Shown here: positions 16,470-27,145 of the stretch, one piece after another
Position numbering within the stretch: the stretch's first letter is position 1
Layout of the letters: the number at the start of each line of letters is the position of its first letter
Assembly: GCF_023499215.1 (NCBI RefSeq)
Contig: NZ_JAKHSK010000015.1
Coordinates: 1 to 64,000 of the forward strand
DNA from: Zunongwangia pacifica
Lineage (GTDB): Bacteria > Bacteroidota > Bacteroidia > Flavobacteriales > Flavobacteriaceae
Direction: 5' to 3'
DNA: 64,000 nt
Notes under the pieces: generated by a model
Seen by the model: the letters and a program-made list of their open reading frames with translations, nothing else
Databases searched by the model: none
What the model was told of the DNA's origin: nothing
Made by a program: the position numbers and the translations under genes

Positions 16470-17156
16470 TTATTTTAATTTCATAAGTTCCTCCACCAAC
16501 ACCCACACCTCTGTACAAGGATTGTGATTGGCATAATCTTGACGCTGCCCATACTTACTTGATAACCGTTTCCCATTTCGGATAGCATCTTCTTGGCTAC
16601 CATGCTCCTTTAGAAGTGCATACATCTGTTCACTGTTTTTCTCGTATCGGAATGTTTCTCCTAAAACAGGTTTTAGGCTGTTCTCAATTAACCCCTTAAA
16701 ATCCCTTCTGGACATGGCATTTTCGTAATATTGAAAATGTAACAAATACCAAAGTTCAAAAGCCTCATTACTCCAGGCACATCCAATATCAGTATTTCCA
16801 CAACGTTGAATAGCGGCATTAAAATCCTGTGGCGAAAAACTGTCCTTATCAAACACCACCCAGAGTTTATCCACCTGTCGGGTGGTACTTTTTTCATAAG
16901 CTTCTTTTAAACGTAAGGCTTCGTCCACCAATGATTGGGTATTCCGGCCTGTTCCTGCTATATCAATTTGATAGGCGGTCAACACACCCTTAGGTAAATC
17001 CTGCTTTAGCCCTTCAAAATAGTTAGGCTCCGTTGCTTCACCCTCACAAACAATAAGATAATACTTCCGTTTGTTGCGGATGTTTTTCTTCCGTTTTTGC
17101 TCTTCTCGTGCAAATCGCTTTAGCCGTTCATTGGGTATTTTTATTTTTCTTGCCAT
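16470..17156 (-). CDS. rloB: RloB-family protein (AbiLii-like, Toprim-type putative nuclease)
   Basis: A 228-residue RloB-domain protein. The N-terminus is highly basic (ERLKRFAREEQKRKKNIRNKRK) and is followed by YYLIVCEGEATEPNYFEGL, the family's conserved acidic motif that resembles the Toprim Glu. WVVFDKDSF near residue 105 would be the DxD-like site, and CAWSNEAFELWYLLHF is another family hallmark. RloA/RloB pairs are linked to restriction loci and are homologous to the AbiL abortive-infection pair. The start overlaps the end of rloA by 16 bases. The end is 5 bases before sbcD, which is an unusual continuation of the pair. Confidence 0.88.
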   Translation of the reverse strand: MARKIKIPNERLKRFAREEQKRKKNIRNKRKYYLIVCEGEATEPNYFEGLKQDLPKGVLTAYQIDIAGTGRNTQSLVDEALRLKEAYEKSTTRQVDKLWVVFDKDSFSPQDFNAAIQRCGNTDIGCAWSNEAFELWYLLHFQYYENAMSRRDFKGLIENSLKPVLGETFRYEKNSEQMYALLKEHGSQEDAIRNGKRLSSKYGQRQDYANHNPCTEVWVLVEELMKLK

Positions 17157-18433
17157 TCCGTTACAACATTTGACAGGTTACCAATAAACGGAATGGCTCC
17201 GTAACGTCCTTCTATATAATCTTTTTCAAAGGAACGGTCTTTACGAATCGTTTTTCCTTCTTCCTTATATTCTACCAAAGAATACATATCCGAAGCCCCA
17301 TATTGATCCTTTTCTACAAAATAGATCTGGTCTCTCCGGTAATTACCATAGTATAATAAGTTCGTATCATGCGTTGCAAAAATGAGCTGTGCATTATTAG
17401 GATTAAATTGCTTTGAATTAAAAAGCCTTGTAACAGCCAGAGTCAACAGCGGATGCAGGCTGGCATCCAGTTCATCCACCACCAATACACCACCATCATT
17501 TAAAACATCAAATACAGGCCCGGAAATATTAAATATTTTGTTTGTGCCGGAGGATTCCTGACTACGCATATCAAATTCTACATCGCCTACAGCTTTACCT
17601 TGGTCATTATATTTCTTATGTATGGTTTTTATATCAATTTTATACGCCCCTTCTAAATCAGTTACTAATTGTCTCACAAGGCTTTCCGGCATATCATTGG
17701 GAAGCTCTTTGGCATCAAAAGGTTTTTTATTGATTGCTATATCATCAAATCCTAAATCCAACCTTTTATAGAAATTAAGTAGCTTAGAACTGGTCTGTTT
17801 ATCCTCCAGCATCCCAAAAGTCACACCTTTATATCCCTCATGGGTGAGACCTGATATGGTAATGAAGTTATCAAACCATTTCATGATTTTTTTAGCTATT
17901 CTTCCATTAAACTGATCAGCCACGGCTAGAAATAATGCATTATCACGTGTACGCTCTTCCAAGTCCCTTCCTTCTGGGAAATTCCTGGTTACTTCTATAC
18001 CGTCACCTTCACGAAGAAACATAGGTTTTTCAGCATTTTTGGGTGCTTCAAAAAGCCATTCGGCGTGTACCTGCTTATCATCTACTTCAAAACCATATCG
18101 ATATCGAATATTATCAATGAGAAAAATTGCTTCAAAAAGTGAAGGAGATTTTTCGGTCCCCGTACTCAATAGGAAGGGAGTCACATCCAGCTCATCCGTT
18201 GAAGATTGGTCAAAAGATTGCAGAACCAAACGTCTCATGGTGGACATAGCTCGGACAAAATTACTTTTGCCACTGGCGTTGGCTCCGTATATCACGGCAC
18301 CTTTCAACAAATCCCTGCGTTCGGTGGAGAATATATTCGTATCTATATGCTCCTTTATAGAGGTTGCAGCAAGACTCAGTGTTGTTTTTGCTTTGAATGA
18401 AAGAAAATTACCAACTGAAAATTCGAGTAACAT
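17141..18433 (-). CDS. rloA: RloA-family AAA ATPase (AbiLi-like)
   Basis: A 430-residue AAA_15/AAA_21 ATPase. It begins MLLEFSVGNFLSFKAKTTL, typical of the family. Walker A is IYGANASGKSNFVRAM near residue 48, the distal motif SSGTNKIFN near 290 replaces a classical signature, and Walker B is GVLVVDELDASLHPLL near 315. IFATHDTNLL is the H-loop region. It is the predicted sensor ATPase of an RloAB/AbiL-type pair, with RloB as effector. It heads a four-gene operon continuing into sbcD and sbcC. Two 15-bp palindromes lie just upstream. PARIS AriA is a related ATPase, but the partner here is RloB, not a DUF4435 protein. Confidence 0.88.
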   Translation of the reverse strand: MLLEFSVGNFLSFKAKTTLSLAATSIKEHIDTNIFSTERRDLLKGAVIYGANASGKSNFVRAMSTMRRLVLQSFDQSSTDELDVTPFLLSTGTEKSPSLFEAIFLIDNIRYRYGFEVDDKQVHAEWLFEAPKNAEKPMFLREGDGIEVTRNFPEGRDLEERTRDNALFLAVADQFNGRIAKKIMKWFDNFITISGLTHEGYKGVTFGMLEDKQTSSKLLNFYKRLDLGFDDIAINKKPFDAKELPNDMPESLVRQLVTDLEGAYKIDIKTIHKKYNDQGKAVGDVEFDMRSQESSGTNKIFNISGPVFDVLNDGGVLVVDELDASLHPLLTLAVTRLFNSKQFNPNNAQLIFATHDTNLLYYGNYRRDQIYFVEKDQYGASDMYSLVEYKEEGKTIRKDRSFEKDYIEGRYGAIPFIGNLSNVVTEWQEK

Positions 18434-22433: not shown

Positions 22434-23333
22434 TTACAGTTTATTCCCTAAGCGTTTCTTCTGCTGCTTTCCAATATGCACAAGCCAGTCATTAAGGTCT
22501 TTGTGGTTTTGGTAAAGCTTGCTATGATCGTTATATTTCTTGCTATTAGACAATGCTTCCCTGGCAACTTTTTGTCCAGCAGCATCATTGTCCAAATACA
22601 GGTTTATTGACTTGTGCGATTCCAGAAATGGACGTGCTTTTTCAAACAGGGAGAGAGAATTTAAAATGACAAAATCAGAAGTATTATTTATCTCATTTTC
22701 TCTGATACTTTTGAACGAAAGAAAATCCATAAAGCCTTCGAATACAGCCACCTCATCGGAAGCATTTTTTACTGTGGTAATGTCCTTTGGAGAACTGCTT
22801 GCTTTGAAATAAGGATTACGTATTTCAAAACCGCCGGAATCATTTTTAAAACCAATCCCATAATAGTTTTTAGCATTCAATTCATAATATACTTCCCGGC
22901 AATATCGGGTTGCAACTTCAACAGGGATTTTTCGTTGTTCCAAGTAGCGTATCAATGCATGTGAACTAAGTGCAACATCTTTTAAAATTTTAAGTTGATG
23001 CTCCGGTTCATTTTTTCTTTTGGGAAAACTTTTTGAGGGCTCTTGAAAAGAAAAACCACCATTCATTTCTTTTAGAAATTCTCCAACGGAACAATCAAAA
23101 TATTGAATCCCAAAATCGATAATATTGCCTCCTTCACCAAGGCCATGATCGTACCATCGGTTCAGCTTTCGATTTACCTTAAATGAGGCTGTATTTTCTT
23201 CCCTTAACGGAGAACGATACCAGTAGTCATTGTTCCTGATTTTTGAAGGTTCATGACCTAATAAGGACAGGTACTGAACCATATCCATTTCCTTAGCTTC
23301 TGTAATAGAAAGTTTTTGTTTCCTGAAATCCAT
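22434..23333 (-). CDS. Toprim-domain DNA primase-like protein of mobile elements
   Basis: A 299-residue protein with an N-terminal CHC2-like zinc-finger-derived domain lacking most cysteines (NDYWYRSPLREENTASFKV, RWYDHGLGEGGNIIDFG) and a C-terminal Toprim domain (EVAVFEGFMDFLSF near residue 195, NLYLDNDAAGQK near 247). Such proteins are standard cargo of Bacteroidota conjugative and mobilisable elements and probably prime the incoming single strand after transfer. It lies upstream of the oriT/mob region on the same strand. The start MDFRKQKLSITEAKEMDMV fits the family well. Confidence 0.9.
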   Translation of the reverse strand: MDFRKQKLSITEAKEMDMVQYLSLLGHEPSKIRNNDYWYRSPLREENTASFKVNRKLNRWYDHGLGEGGNIIDFGIQYFDCSVGEFLKEMNGGFSFQEPSKSFPKRKNEPEHQLKILKDVALSSHALIRYLEQRKIPVEVATRYCREVYYELNAKNYYGIGFKNDSGGFEIRNPYFKASSSPKDITTVKNASDEVAVFEGFMDFLSFKSIRENEINNTSDFVILNSLSLFEKARPFLESHKSINLYLDNDAAGQKVAREALSNSKKYNDHSKLYQNHKDLNDWLVHIGKQQKKRLGNKL

Positions 23334-23568
23334 AACCGCATATTTTCATCTTCACTATTCAGTTTACTGACGTAAAGTTAAACAAGTGGTATGGCTTTTA
23401 CCCATCCTCTCTATATTTTGAATGGGATGGTAGTCAGGATATTAAAAGGTATTCCAGAATTAATTTTACTCAATCCACACTTCCCTGGATAGGATATTCT
23501 TCTTTTAAAGGAAAAAGTTTTATTCGGTATATGAGAGAATACTCTTATATGATAATAAGAAGAATAAT

Positions 23569-24210
23569 TTAATTTGTAATAACAATAGAACTATATAGAG
23601 AATATAGCTCCCAGCCTAAAGATTCGTATAAAATTTTCCCTTCCTCAGTTGCTACTAAAAAATTTTTGAACACACCTTTTGAGATAGCGATTTTCTCTAA
23701 TTCACTCATAACAAAAGTTGCAAGACCTTTTTTTCTATGATTGATGTCTGTTATAATTCTATCATACACTGCCATGTCATCTAAAAGTACAACCCTGCCT
23801 ATTGAAGCTAATTGTCCTCCATACGTAACAACCCTTATCACATATGTTGAATTATAAGACTCCTTTTCTAAAGTATATTCACTTCCTAAAAACCCATTCT
23901 GAAACGTCATCTGTTTAAGGCAAGACATCATATATCCTTGGGGTTGAATTTTCCATTTAGGAGAGACTATATCTTTGAATTCTTCTGGTGAGGCACAAAC
24001 TTTCAAAAAAATCCAAGGATCACTAATATTTTTTGATAATTGAAAAAAGTCTTTGTTGAGTACTGGAAACACATAACGTACTTTCTGTTTTTTTTCTCCA
24101 ACATCTACTCTAAAACCAGACTTATACCTAACAGGAAGAGAAACCTGTCTTGACAACGACCAAGCTCTTAGCCATTTTTCAATAATATTTGAAGAAACAC
24201 CAAATTCCAT
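23569..24210 (-). CDS. GNAT-family N-acetyltransferase
   Basis: A 213-residue protein. The C-terminal 90 residues show the GNAT fold: strands GGQLASIGRVVLLDDMAVYDRIITD, then a variant acetyl-CoA loop HRKKGLATFVMSELEKIA (normally Q/RxxGxG/A), and LYESLGWEL near the end. The N-terminal half (about 1-110) is not recognised and may set substrate specificity. It is isolated between the primase and an AAA_28 gene, with a 235-base gap (23334-23568) in which nothing is seen. Substrate is unknown; amino acid or antibiotic acetylation are possibilities. Confidence 0.75.
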   Translation of the reverse strand: MEFGVSSNIIEKWLRAWSLSRQVSLPVRYKSGFRVDVGEKKQKVRYVFPVLNKDFFQLSKNISDPWIFLKVCASPEEFKDIVSPKWKIQPQGYMMSCLKQMTFQNGFLGSEYTLEKESYNSTYVIRVVTYGGQLASIGRVVLLDDMAVYDRIITDINHRKKGLATFVMSELEKIAISKGVFKNFLVATEEGKILYESLGWELYSLYSSIVITN

Positions 24211-24271
24211 GATTATATATTACTCTGGTAAAGGTAAATGTTTTATTGCGAATGTTAGAAAGATAATAATA

Positions 24272-24850
24272 CTATGAACAGTTGCTTATCAAATGTTTAA
24301 TTATGAAATTAACTCTCTTTAAAATTGTAGTTTTAGGCAGTTCAACTAATTTATACCCCAAGAAAGAATAGCTTTCCTTCATGATATGATACGTAGCAAC
24401 TGCTTCTTCAAAAGTCTGTTTTCTTTCGGCATCATTTGCATAAATAGCTTTCCAAGGTGGAGTTATAAAAACCGTAGTATTATATCGGTTTTCTTTCGCT
24501 GCCCGCCACATTGTTTCAGGAATGGAAATATTGCACAGTTTTAGGTATCCGATAACATCTGGAATACCACGGTCAAAAAATGTCAATCCACACTTCTCCG
24601 ATACATTTTGAAAATCTTTAAGGGATTGCTGAAACATAGCCATTGCAAATCCTTCTTTATCAAGCCACGGTAAACGATTTCCATATGTTTTAATTTCTTT
24701 TTGGATAATACTTCTACCGGTTTCTGCAACCGAATGATATCCCATAACTGAAAGTTGTTCTATCACGGATGTCTTTCCCATTCCGGGACCTCCTGAAATA
24801 ATAATAGCGTTTGATTTGTTTTCCATAGTTCTAATAATTATCTCCTTCAT
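24272..24850 (-). CDS. AAA_28-family ATP-binding protein
   Basis: A P-loop protein of 192 residues from the ATG at 24850 (MKEIIIRTMENKSN); a start at MENKSNAII (24826) is also possible. The longer frame would overlap the divergent gene beginning at 24924 and is less likely. Walker A is IISGGPGMGKTSVIEQL and a Walker B-like strand is LTFFDRGIPDVIGYL. The family resembles predicted nucleotide or nucleoside kinases (NadR/AAA_28) that phosphorylate small substrates. It is probably an accessory gene of the element with an unknown substrate. Confidence 0.75.
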   Translation of the reverse strand: MKEIIIRTMENKSNAIIISGGPGMGKTSVIEQLSVMGYHSVAETGRSIIQKEIKTYGNRLPWLDKEGFAMAMFQQSLKDFQNVSEKCGLTFFDRGIPDVIGYLKLCNISIPETMWRAAKENRYNTTVFITPPWKAIYANDAERKQTFEEAVATYHIMKESYSFLGYKLVELPKTTILKRVNFIIKHLISNCS

Positions 24851-24923
24851 ATTTTGATGAGGATGATTTCTTTTACTCTTAATACTTTTGTTATTAATGT
24901 TGAATGATTTAAAACGTGTGATT

Positions 24924-25214
24924 ATGTTGACAACAAATGATGTAGCCAAAGTTTATGATACCATCTTAAGTATCCCTGGCATGAATGACACAGTGAAGAT
25001 TGATTTGAGGATCTCACGTAAAAATGTGCTATTACTAAACCATGTAATTGAGCGTGGATTGGTCGTGAAAAATGATGAGAAAAATGATGGACTTCTATCT
25101 AATGTGCCCGAAGAAAATCTGGAAGAATTGAAAAGTATTGCCGATCAATATCTCGAAAAAGCCGGACTTATTGAACTCAAAGAAAAGTTGAATGAGTTAG
25201 GAAATGGGAAGTAA
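24924..25214 (+). CDS. Conserved small protein of Bacteroidota mobile elements, unknown function
   Basis: A 96-residue protein when started at MLTTNDVAKVYDTIL; the 12-codon upstream extension overlaps the divergent ATPase gene region. The sequence is acidic and helical, with PGMNDTVKIDLRISRKNVLLL and a C-terminal coiled-coil-like LEELKSIADQYLEKAGLIEL. No catalytic motif is seen. Similar small proteins occur on Bacteroidota elements near mobilisation genes, according to general knowledge. It is convergent with the next gene, leaving a 14-base gap. Confidence 0.65.
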   Translation: MLTTNDVAKVYDTILSIPGMNDTVKIDLRISRKNVLLLNHVIERGLVVKNDEKNDGLLSNVPEENLEELKSIADQYLEKAGLIELKEKLNELGNGK

Positions 25215-25228
25215 CGTATTCAGGCTGG

Positions 25229-25438
25229 TTATTCGGTTATCCAGCCTTCTTCTTTTCTGATATTTTGAACCTTGTTTGCTATGAGCCAATCTTCAAATAA
25301 TGAATCGTTAATAGGAGTAAATTTAATAAATTCTCCTGAGGATAGCATTAAGGTAAAATCTTTTGCTACGGTAATGTATTTGAGGAGTTCTGAAGCTGAA
25401 TAATGAAATCCGGGAAAATGCTGGGCGGCTGCTTTCAT
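25229..25438 (-). CDS. Hypothetical protein, 69 residues
   Basis: A small protein beginning MKAAAQHFPGFHYSAS and ending RKEEGWITE. It contains no recognisable domain or membrane segment. The long rod-like inverted repeat at 25497-25605 lies about 60 bases upstream of its start, so that RNA could form part of its leader. Its convergent layout with the plus-strand gene before it and the start quality support it as real, but only moderately. Confidence 0.5.
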   Translation of the reverse strand: MKAAAQHFPGFHYSASELLKYITVAKDFTLMLSSGEFIKFTPINDSLFEDWLIANKVQNIRKEEGWITE

Positions 25439-25496
25439 ATCAATATTTTTATGGATTAATACCGCCTGATTTAAAATAGCGCAGGCAGCAACTTAC

Positions 25497-25605
25497 AGCA
25501 CTGAGGTCTTAGGAAACCCAACAACAATAAGTGCGCCCACGCAGTAGCATGAGCGTTCTTCACTTGTTGTCCTGCTGTTATCGAAATTTCCTAAGTTTCA
25601 GTGCC
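25497..25605 (-). ncRNA. Rod-like nested inverted repeat (candidate structured RNA or single-strand origin)
   Basis: The interval folds end to end. CAGCACTGAGGTCTTAGGAAA on the left opposes TTTCCTAAGTTTCAGTG on the right (6 bp plus 9 bp with an internal loop). Inside, CAACAATAAGTG opposes CACTTGTTG. The tip is ACGC-AGTAGCATGA-GCGT. About 110 bases are involved and no good frame crosses it. It sits in the 297-base gap between a small hypothetical gene and the MocR gene. It could be a leader RNA, a replication or conjugation origin, or a recombination site. Confidence 0.45.
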
Positions 25606-25735
25606 GGACTCAAAGCAAAACGCTTCAAGAATATTTTTTACAAAGATAGCTTTTTGGGTTCAAACTTTATATAAAAAGATGTCCTTACAAATAGCTATCT
25701 ATACCTAGTAAATCATAGAACAGATTATTTAACAA

Positions 25736-27145
25736 TTACGACATTCTTTTAGCTATTCTTCCTAATAACTTTAGTTTGTCATCAATATGTTCTGACCAAG
25801 GTTGGCCATAGCTTAGCCGCATACAATTGTTAAATTGATTTTGTAGCGAAAACATCCTGCCCGGAGCTATGCTTATATTTTGAAGCATCGCTTTTTCATA
25901 CAATGCTGCCGTATCTATTTTCTCTTCCAATTCTACCCACAGCATGAATCCTCCCTGAGGGTTGCTGATTTTTGTTTTTTCCGGAAAATACTCTGCTATT
26001 GCCCTGGCATAGTGTAAACTGTTGGCGTATAATGTTTTTCGCAACGTTCTCAAATAATTCTCATAACGTCCTTTCTCCAAAAAGTTGGCAATTGCTTCTT
26101 GTGTTATGGTTGTGGAAGAAACGGTATGGATCAATTTCTGATGAATGATTTTATCTTTGAATTTTCCGGGGGCTATCCAGCCTACCCGATAGCCCGGGGC
26201 AAGCGTTTTAGAAACCGATCCTATCCATAAAACCAATCCTTCTTTGTCAAACGCCTTACAGGGCTTAGGGCGGTTGCTTCCAAAATATACATCTCCATAC
26301 AGATCATCTTCTATCAAAGGAATTCCATATCTGGCTAGCATAGAAACCACTTCCTTTTTATGTGCATCAGGCATACAACTCCCCAATGGATTGTTGAAAT
26401 TAGAAATCAGGATACAGGTTTTAATTTTAGGAATTACTTTTTTTAAAGCTTCCAGTTCCACGCCGGTAATAGGGTTTGTAGGAAGTTCAATAACGTGCAG
26501 CCCCAGGCTTTTTGCGAGTTGTAATATTCCGAAATAAACAGGGCTTTCTACTGCAATGGTATCTCCCTTTTTGGTAAGTGCCATCAATGCAAATGAAAGG
26601 GCATTCATTGCCCCTGCGGTAGTAATAATGTCTTCCTTCTGCAAATTACCATTCCAGGTATAGGTAAACCGGGCAATATCCCTGCGTAGCTTTTGGTTCC
26701 CCTGTATATTTTCATACTCAGTTCCACCTCCCTTAAGGTTTCGCATGGCATTCACCAGTTCCTTGTTCAATTTTGCTATAGGCAACAATTCATTCTCCGG
26801 TACTCCCAAAGAGAATCGGGTAATCCTGGTATCATTTAATGAGGTATATACTTTAGCGATTAGGCTTTCCACACATTCCGGCTCCTCAATTCCTTCTGGA
26901 TTACTGGTTGAGGGTACAGATAATTGATTGGGTTTGTAATTAACAAAATACCCTGATTTAGGTCTGGAGATAATTAACCCTTGTGATTCCAGTTCCAGGT
27001 AGGCCTGAATAACCGTGTTCATACTAACCCCATATTCTCTCTTTAGATCTCTAAGAGAAGGCATTTTTTCCCCGGTCTTTATAGTGCCGCTTTGAATCTG
27101 ATCTGATAATGTTTCGGCAATTTTTTGATATAGTGTAGTCTTCAT
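25736..27145 (-). CDS. MocR-type transcriptional regulator (GntR helix-turn-helix plus aminotransferase domain)
   Basis: A 469-residue protein when started at MKTTLYQKIAETLS (27145); the track frame extends 16 residues further with no domain support. The winged-helix GntR domain occupies about residues 1-70 (GEKMPSLRDLKREYGVSMNTVIQAYLEL). The rest is a fold-type I aminotransferase with NFNNPLGSCMP, DDLYGDVYF and the PLP lysine in SVSKTLAPGYRVGW. MocR proteins sense PLP, amino acids or related ligands and usually control the divergent gene. Here that is an EamA transporter heading a long operon. Direct repeats in the intergenic region could be its sites. Confidence 0.9.
   Translation of the reverse strand: MKTTLYQKIAETLSDQIQSGTIKTGEKMPSLRDLKREYGVSMNTVIQAYLELESQGLIISRPKSGYFVNYKPNQLSVPSTSNPEGIEEPECVESLIAKVYTSLNDTRITRFSLGVPENELLPIAKLNKELVNAMRNLKGGGTEYENIQGNQKLRRDIARFTYTWNGNLQKEDIITTAGAMNALSFALMALTKKGDTIAVESPVYFGILQLAKSLGLHVIELPTNPITGVELEALKKVIPKIKTCILISNFNNPLGSCMPDAHKKEVVSMLARYGIPLIEDDLYGDVYFGSNRPKPCKAFDKEGLVLWIGSVSKTLAPGYRVGWIAPGKFKDKIIHQKLIHTVSSTTITQEAIANFLEKGRYENYLRTLRKTLYANSLHYARAIAEYFPEKTKISNPQGGFMLWVELEEKIDTAALYEKAMLQNISIAPGRMFSLQNQFNNCMRLSYGQPWSEHIDDKLKLLGRIAKRMS

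Follow-up and report, generated by a model that had tools for sequence, protein, structure and literature searches.

An inverted repeat ahead of a 69-residue gene

The window, meaning the whole 64,000-nucleotide stretch of Zunongwangia pacifica DNA analysed here, carries a mobilisable element whose MobC-like gene passes its NCBIfam cut-off; the MobA- and MobB-like genes fall short of theirs. Beside these mobilisation genes, an AAA-type ATPase gene and its partner (16470–18433) resemble RloA/RloB by eye, for which NCBIfam gave no confirmation. A gene for a 69-residue protein lies on the minus strand, and ahead of it lies the inverted repeat examined here (hereafter the rod). The coordinates of the rod, its parts and its flanking features are given in Table 1.

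Table 1. Features of the putative leader unit and the gene behind it.
Feature	Position	Strand	Basis or remark
−7 box TATCTTTG	25641–25648	−	Read in sequence; matches TAnnTTTG
Leader RNA core (match to model R1)	25496–25631	−	75 bits, E 6.5e-14; window copy outside model
Segment 1, small 5′ hairpin (P1)	25609–25629	−	Folding; 1:2 pairing counted
Linker GUCC, complement of GGAC at 25569–25572	25606–25609	−	Linker × bulge swap test
Rod (inverted repeat)	25495–25606	−	Folding, shuffles, covariation, tiling
Bulge GGAC, alternative partner of linker	25569–25572	−	Swap test, folding
Segment 2, inner 5′ arm of rod	25547–25565	−	Folding
Segment 3, inner 3′ arm GCGTGGGCGCACTTATTG	25525–25542	−	Preceded by T, not G; matched by dCas12f guides in other genomes
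Segment 4, tail; can pair with segment 3 as terminator-like stem	25479–25496	−	Arm × tail duplex
Weak U run UAUUUU after tail	25473–25478	−	Sequence
69-residue gene, presumed regulated gene	25229–25438	−	Conserved in 14/14 subtype loci

The initial annotation had described an inverted repeat at 25497–25605 built of nested stems with a tip, less AT-rich than its surroundings and crossed by no reading frame, and each of these points is borne out. The pairing extends slightly beyond those limits (Table 1), and the rod has nested stems with an apical hairpin, GCTCATGC/GCGTGGGC. Its G+C content is 46.8%, compared with 35.9% for the window and 33.8% for 23000–25490, and a stop lies inside it in all six frames. 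The minus strand of the rod folds at −51.8 kcal/mol (z = −4.06), with none of 200 shuffles as good, and the plus strand at −40.6 kcal/mol (z = −2.15), with six of 200 shuffles as good. When the window was tiled into 426 pieces of 135 nt, taking the better strand of each, none matched the −52.3 kcal/mol of the rod. The RNA sense of the rod is the minus strand.

The conserved unit exceeds the rod and includes a small 5′ hairpin, a 3′ tail and a promoter-like box. We take this box to be the −7 box of the Bacteroidota type, with TAnnTTTG presumably its consensus, and transcription is expected to start a few bases downstream of it. Among 99 relatives, 88 have a strict TAnnTTTG at most 60 nt upstream, as against 4 of 99 in one shuffle, and a sigma-70 promoter scan found sites no more commonly than in shuffled sequence. 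In the window subtype, a GCAGG-like stretch seen by eye just downstream may offer the tail an alternative pairing.

The rod belongs to an RNA family of the Bacteroidota

The rod is one copy of an RNA family that spans the Bacteroidota and is apparently uncatalogued, Rfam 15 holding no match to it. Rfam returned no match in the window and, with the threshold relaxed to E 10, no relevant hit on 25380–25740; other Rfam families considered for the rod were set aside, none being relevant or reaching its gathering score. We built a covariance model (R1) from five distant copies, including one on contig C12 of this genome and excluding the window copy, which R1 recognises with the score given in Table 1. 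The window rod is a genuine representative of this RNA family, which extends over the phylum. The search across the Bacteroidota proposed with the initial annotation recovered the family, with compensatory changes: R1 scored hits in 70 of the 397 genomes screened from the taxonomic family, and a sample of 395 genomes from the phylum gave 47 carriers. No more than eight candidates per genome were scored, making copies per genome lower bounds, and the highest number seen in a single genome is at least eight. A similarity search of 198 genomes yielded copies at 69–91% identity that have the small 5′ hairpin, the rod and a T-run tail in common.

Within this genome, a second copy is 93% identical over 121 bases and lies inside 1344 bases at 95% identity, and three more distant copies are found on contigs C12, C100 and C8. 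A third, degenerate copy of the module (L009 4725–5177; G000:C7, about 101 kb) lacks a stretch of 177 bp that takes in half the rod and the beginning of the 69-residue gene. The homology with the sister copy on contig C8 ends at 25656, 8 bp past the promoter-like box; this junction is older than the genome, because L235, L240 and L241 share the right-hand genes of the window. Two IMG/VR contigs also carry rod copies (L245 and L246, E 6e-12 and 2.1e-13), and collections of plasmids and phages gave only short, chance-like matches to the rod. For the tail, a search for a second site returned only matches of 8–12 bases inside 24 loci; against its own genome at up to three mismatches, the tail has two exact matches (the two rods) and 33 others at two or three mismatches.

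Judged by titles and the opening lines of abstracts, a literature search whose coverage excluded most preprints and subscription papers found none on the rod leader or on sigma-dCas12f, which is weak evidence of absence. Small RNAs of Flavobacterium psychrophilum are described in PMC9723704, and PMC13418256 has TldR as its subject, with 'Cas12f' absent from its main text.

Two competing folds

We divide the leader into four putative segments: the 5′ hairpin and linker (1), the inner arms of the rod (2 and 3), and the tail before the U run (4). At the level of the family, these can form two mutually exclusive folds, 2:3 (fold A, the rod) and 1:2 with 3:4 (fold T), each with compensatory change, as in a four-segment attenuator. 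For fold A, 93.4% of cells are paired across 99 copies, compared with 78.2% in shuffles, and 18 of 26 pairs have changed on both sides, giving 356 such cells against 104.6, in an alignment (A4, 99 sequences) that was fitted to the model and with shuffles that ignore relatedness. For fold T, a MAFFT alignment took in 63 of the 66 non-redundant copies, leaving out L135 and L166, which are cut inside the tail, and the distant L033. Here, 94.9% of cells are paired, compared with 92.1% in shuffles and at most 50.2% when slid, and 16 of 25 pairs have changed on both sides against 5.5, in 56 cells against 11.1, the shuffles again ignoring relatedness. Neither the linker nor the tail is paired in fold A, so covariation in these two stretches adds a separate line of evidence. 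The excess of G–U over A–C cells is slight (102 to 74, and 60 to 73 without one column), so this comparison does not favour RNA over DNA.

Swapping partners between copies gave the same picture. Arms paired with their own tails at −25.7 kcal/mol and with swapped tails at −23.0 kcal/mol, and linkers paired with their own bulges at −6.53 kcal/mol and with swapped bulges at −5.46 kcal/mol; none of 2000 permutations did as well in either case, with relatedness ignored. In the window, the arm × tail duplex reaches −22.1, compared with a mean of −17.7 for foreign tails (rank 0.07), and linker × bulge reaches −6.7, compared with a mean of −3.5 for foreign partners. The arm × tail pairing is lost in G002, of the same genus (−11.0 versus −17.1 with foreign tails), and the linker pairing in L033.

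The stability of the two folds varies among copies. Over 115 copies, the mean gap between folds A and T is 4.6 kcal/mol, and several susC-type copies are near-balanced (L052, −59.4/−57.9; L072, −51.3/−49.5; L128, −56.4/−54.7). A run of at least four U follows within 45 nt in 110 of the 115; the constrained fold ends no more than 4 nt from the U run in 70 of them and not next to it in 45. In the window copy, the folds are not of comparable stability: the forced terminator fold has −47.1 kcal/mol against −62.7 kcal/mol for the rod, 15.6 weaker, and the U run is short. In five other copies of the mobile type, fold T is 6.7–19.4 kcal/mol weaker. For the window subtype, this instability of fold T is where the attenuator reading is weakest.

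Genes behind the rod

The alignment and neighbour count cover 99 copies from 97 loci, with 20 weaker loci left out. A divergent upstream gene, falling in two HTH-like clusters, accompanies 89 of the 99 copies. Behind the rod, taking the first same-strand gene of at least 90 residues, 95 of the 99 copies have such a gene and four have none. This gene is of the susC type in 50 copies and a sigma factor gene in 21 (two L169 copies sharing one sigma frame), with dCas12f next in 15. Three copies precede a receiver-domain gene, three an AAA_28 gene of the window type (the 69-residue gene, under the size limit, lying between) and six some other gene. A further 12 rods precede a gene of about 110 codons (110 aa) without a Pfam match, in loci of G024 and G330 (e.g. 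L051, L057 and L111). Pfam matches on representatives were to TonB plug, CarbopepD_reg_2, SusD, HTH_3 or HTH_26, Response_reg and Sigma70; neighbours beyond these representatives were assigned to classes via BLAST clustering. The distance from rod to susC is 222–1231 bp, more than a simple attenuator would be expected to have. In this gap, the 8-mer TGCCTATG is found at 13 of 22 loci, often 104–113 bp before the start codon and then followed by a CCTCC/GGAGG hairpin, and the two together are possibly a second control element.

The gene behind the rod could be merely adjacent, the RNA itself being a free-standing, trans-acting small RNA of about 150–190 nt with its own promoter and terminator. 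A promoter-like box and U run flanking the unit, several copies per genome and susC starts hundreds of bases downstream would all suit such an RNA. We consider it unlikely nonetheless, as genes of a few recurring kinds follow on the same strand in nearly all copies, the same small gene sits 56–69 bp behind at all 14 loci of the window subtype, and two competing folds, one of them a terminator, fit a cis-acting switch better.

Sigma-dCas12f guides and the 3′ arm

The 365-aa protein encoded behind the sigma gene of locus L082 matches PDB 9n9c, 'Nuclease-deactivated Cas12f' (E 3e-195; the same sequence in 9n9q), and the L082 sigma factor matches chain C, 'RpoE', of 9n9q (E 1.6e-102). A conserved scaffold, whose last bases are ATACAAC, sits immediately 3′ of dcas12f and leads into the guide. 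We rejected the rod as the dCas12f guide RNA, with its tail as the guide, given this separate scaffold and the near-constant tail.

Of 27 guides, 26 were scored against rods of the same genome, leaving out that of G459, which has no rod. Thirteen beat shuffles (p < 0.05) and the other 13 match no rod better than chance. Eleven match the 3′ arm of the rod at 14–16 of 16 bases, all after a G, as expected of a sigma-dCas12f target site; many guides are near-identical, so these 11 are not independent. The two remaining significant guides match weakly, at 12 and 11 of 16 bases, and guide/rod pairs at first read in G226 and G390 did not survive the scored test. A G precedes the arm in 95 of 99 rods and in six of the 14 named loci of the window subtype; sigma-dCas12f is said to require a 5′-G, with start sites that follow the R-loop. 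Counting fragments, dCas12f occurs in 19 of the 397 genomes of the taxonomic family, 18 of which have rods (Fisher p 6e-14), and 52 rod-bearing genomes gave no dCas12f hit. One guide of G003 without a rod match (L201) shares, by eye, the 15 bases AAAAGCCTTCCCGCG with a stretch just upstream of the L072 susC-type gene, and further guide targets may lie close to these genes.

These matches, the G and the joint occurrence would be expected if the rod were chiefly a DNA element, a docking site for sigma-dCas12f kept because guides aim there, with RNA folding secondary. We regard this as improbable. Rods are present in many genomes with no dCas12f hit, stems far from the target covary, half of the guides match no rod beyond chance, the guides that do are not independent, and the apical stem may itself be what keeps the G. 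The window arm follows a T, and this genome yielded no dCas12f hit, although G001 and G003 of the same genus carry dCas12f. Nor did searches of this genome turn up a match to the scaffold (in a search run without a positive control) or the arm motif a third time. The most fitting reading of the window copy is therefore an RNA leader that lacks RNA-guided docking.

A subtype on mobile elements

The window copy is of a mobile-element subtype and lies 57 bp ahead of the 69-residue gene. A pattern search through named genomes found 14 subtype loci, in Sphingobacterium, Pedobacter, Flavobacterium, Flagellimonas, Mesonia, Salegentibacter, Aequorivita and unclassified Bacteroidota. All 14 (including L231 and L239) have a 68–72 residue gene like that of the window behind the rod, and many have a convergent 98–120 aa gene and a primase-like gene further on. 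The 69-residue protein is 50–97% identical to that of the window across the eight of 14 loci compared (L232, L233, L242 and L243 were missed by the filter, and L235 and L241 duplicate others). Synonymous codon changes relative to the window gene outnumber non-synonymous ones in five of seven comparisons and equal them in two. The protein has no family match, and its predicted structure (mean pLDDT 51) was set aside.

The family could be functional elsewhere and the window copy a decayed passenger that no longer switches, as its weak terminator fold, its short U run, the half-deleted copy in the same genome and, in G002, a broken 69-residue frame together with a broken tail might suggest. This is very improbable: the window arm pairs better with its own tail than with foreign tails, the rod is nearly unchanged in other genera, and the 69-residue frame is kept.

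Besides a regulatory RNA or leader of the 69-residue gene, the initial annotation had suggested a single-strand replication origin or an integration site. The former suggestion has held up, in light of the compensatory changes, the promoter-like box shared by relatives and the same small gene downstream at every subtype locus. We find the latter two, or a non-autonomous transposable repeat, barely credible despite the sister-copy homology that ends just past the unit, the recurrence of copies within one genome and an integrase-like gene near three Sphingobacterium copies, since 71 of 99 relatives precede susC-type or sigma genes and such roles leave the conserved promoter box, tail and U run unexplained.

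Proposed mechanism

From the sequences we infer that the rod is an RNA. The family is most likely a cis-acting, attenuator-like leader, in the window that of a mobile-element gene, which would be transcribed and would switch between its folds. On balance, we favour the view that the rod is the core of a structured leader RNA, transcribed from the minus strand, that would control the gene behind it in cis. The conserved architecture, covariation for both folds, the promoter-like box, the U run and the position ahead of same-strand genes all point this way.

In such a leader, pairing of segments 2 and 3 would form the rod, leave the tail free and let polymerase read on, while pairing of 1 with 2 would release arm 3 to pair with 4 as an intrinsic-terminator hairpin. 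In the window, the regulated gene would be the 69-residue gene of the mobilisable element. With its weak terminator fold, this copy is likely to lean towards read-through, or else to terminate only on a strong signal. In genomes with sigma-dCas12f, the guide RNA probably also targets the DNA of arm 3, and initiation there could start transcripts beyond the terminator.

We propose, tentatively and with more doubt than confidence, that RNA attenuation and RNA-guided transcription converge on the leader, with guides that are copies of arm 3, self-regulation of the system and mobile copies that escape control. Sigma-dCas12f on the DNA of arm 3 would initiate transcription past the arm, giving transcripts in which the terminator could not form. 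The guide RNA could also pair with leader segments 2 and 4, tipping the switch. Self-regulation would follow from the presence of the leader ahead of the sigma-dCas12f operon as well. Copies on mobile elements, which keep the RNA switch and have partly lost the docking G, might thereby escape the RNA-guided control of the host.

If these proposals are true, a phylum-wide leader RNA precedes many TonB-dependent transporter genes in the Bacteroidota, and a native target can be named for RNA-guided transcription. The guides of separate dCas12f loci would then resemble each other as they all aim at a shared leader, which is testable, and mobilisable elements would carry their own version of the leader ahead of a small gene.

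Comparison with known systems

The rod is, like 6S-Flavo RNA (RF01685), a rod-like structured RNA found in the same genomes. We rejected the rod as a 6S RNA, as 6S-Flavo is a separate locus in six of the seven rod-bearing genomes searched, this one included, and no Rfam match falls at the rod.

As in the sigma-dCas12f systems (PDB 9n9c and 9n9q), rods precede sigma-dCas12f operons and susC-type genes, and the 3′ arm is matched by guides where it follows a G. Unlike a sigma-dCas12f guide RNA, the rod probably serves as target and leader, and most rod-bearing genomes, including this one, have no dCas12f hit.

The trp leader is a four-segment transcription attenuator, in which 1:2 pairing with the 3:4 terminator competes with the 2:3 antiterminator. 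The rod leader resembles trp-type attenuators in having 1:2 and 3:4 pairings opposed to 2:3, ahead of a presumed regulated gene. It differs from them in that no leader peptide was seen by eye, the 2:3 pairing lies within a long rod, and its sequence is conserved across the phylum.
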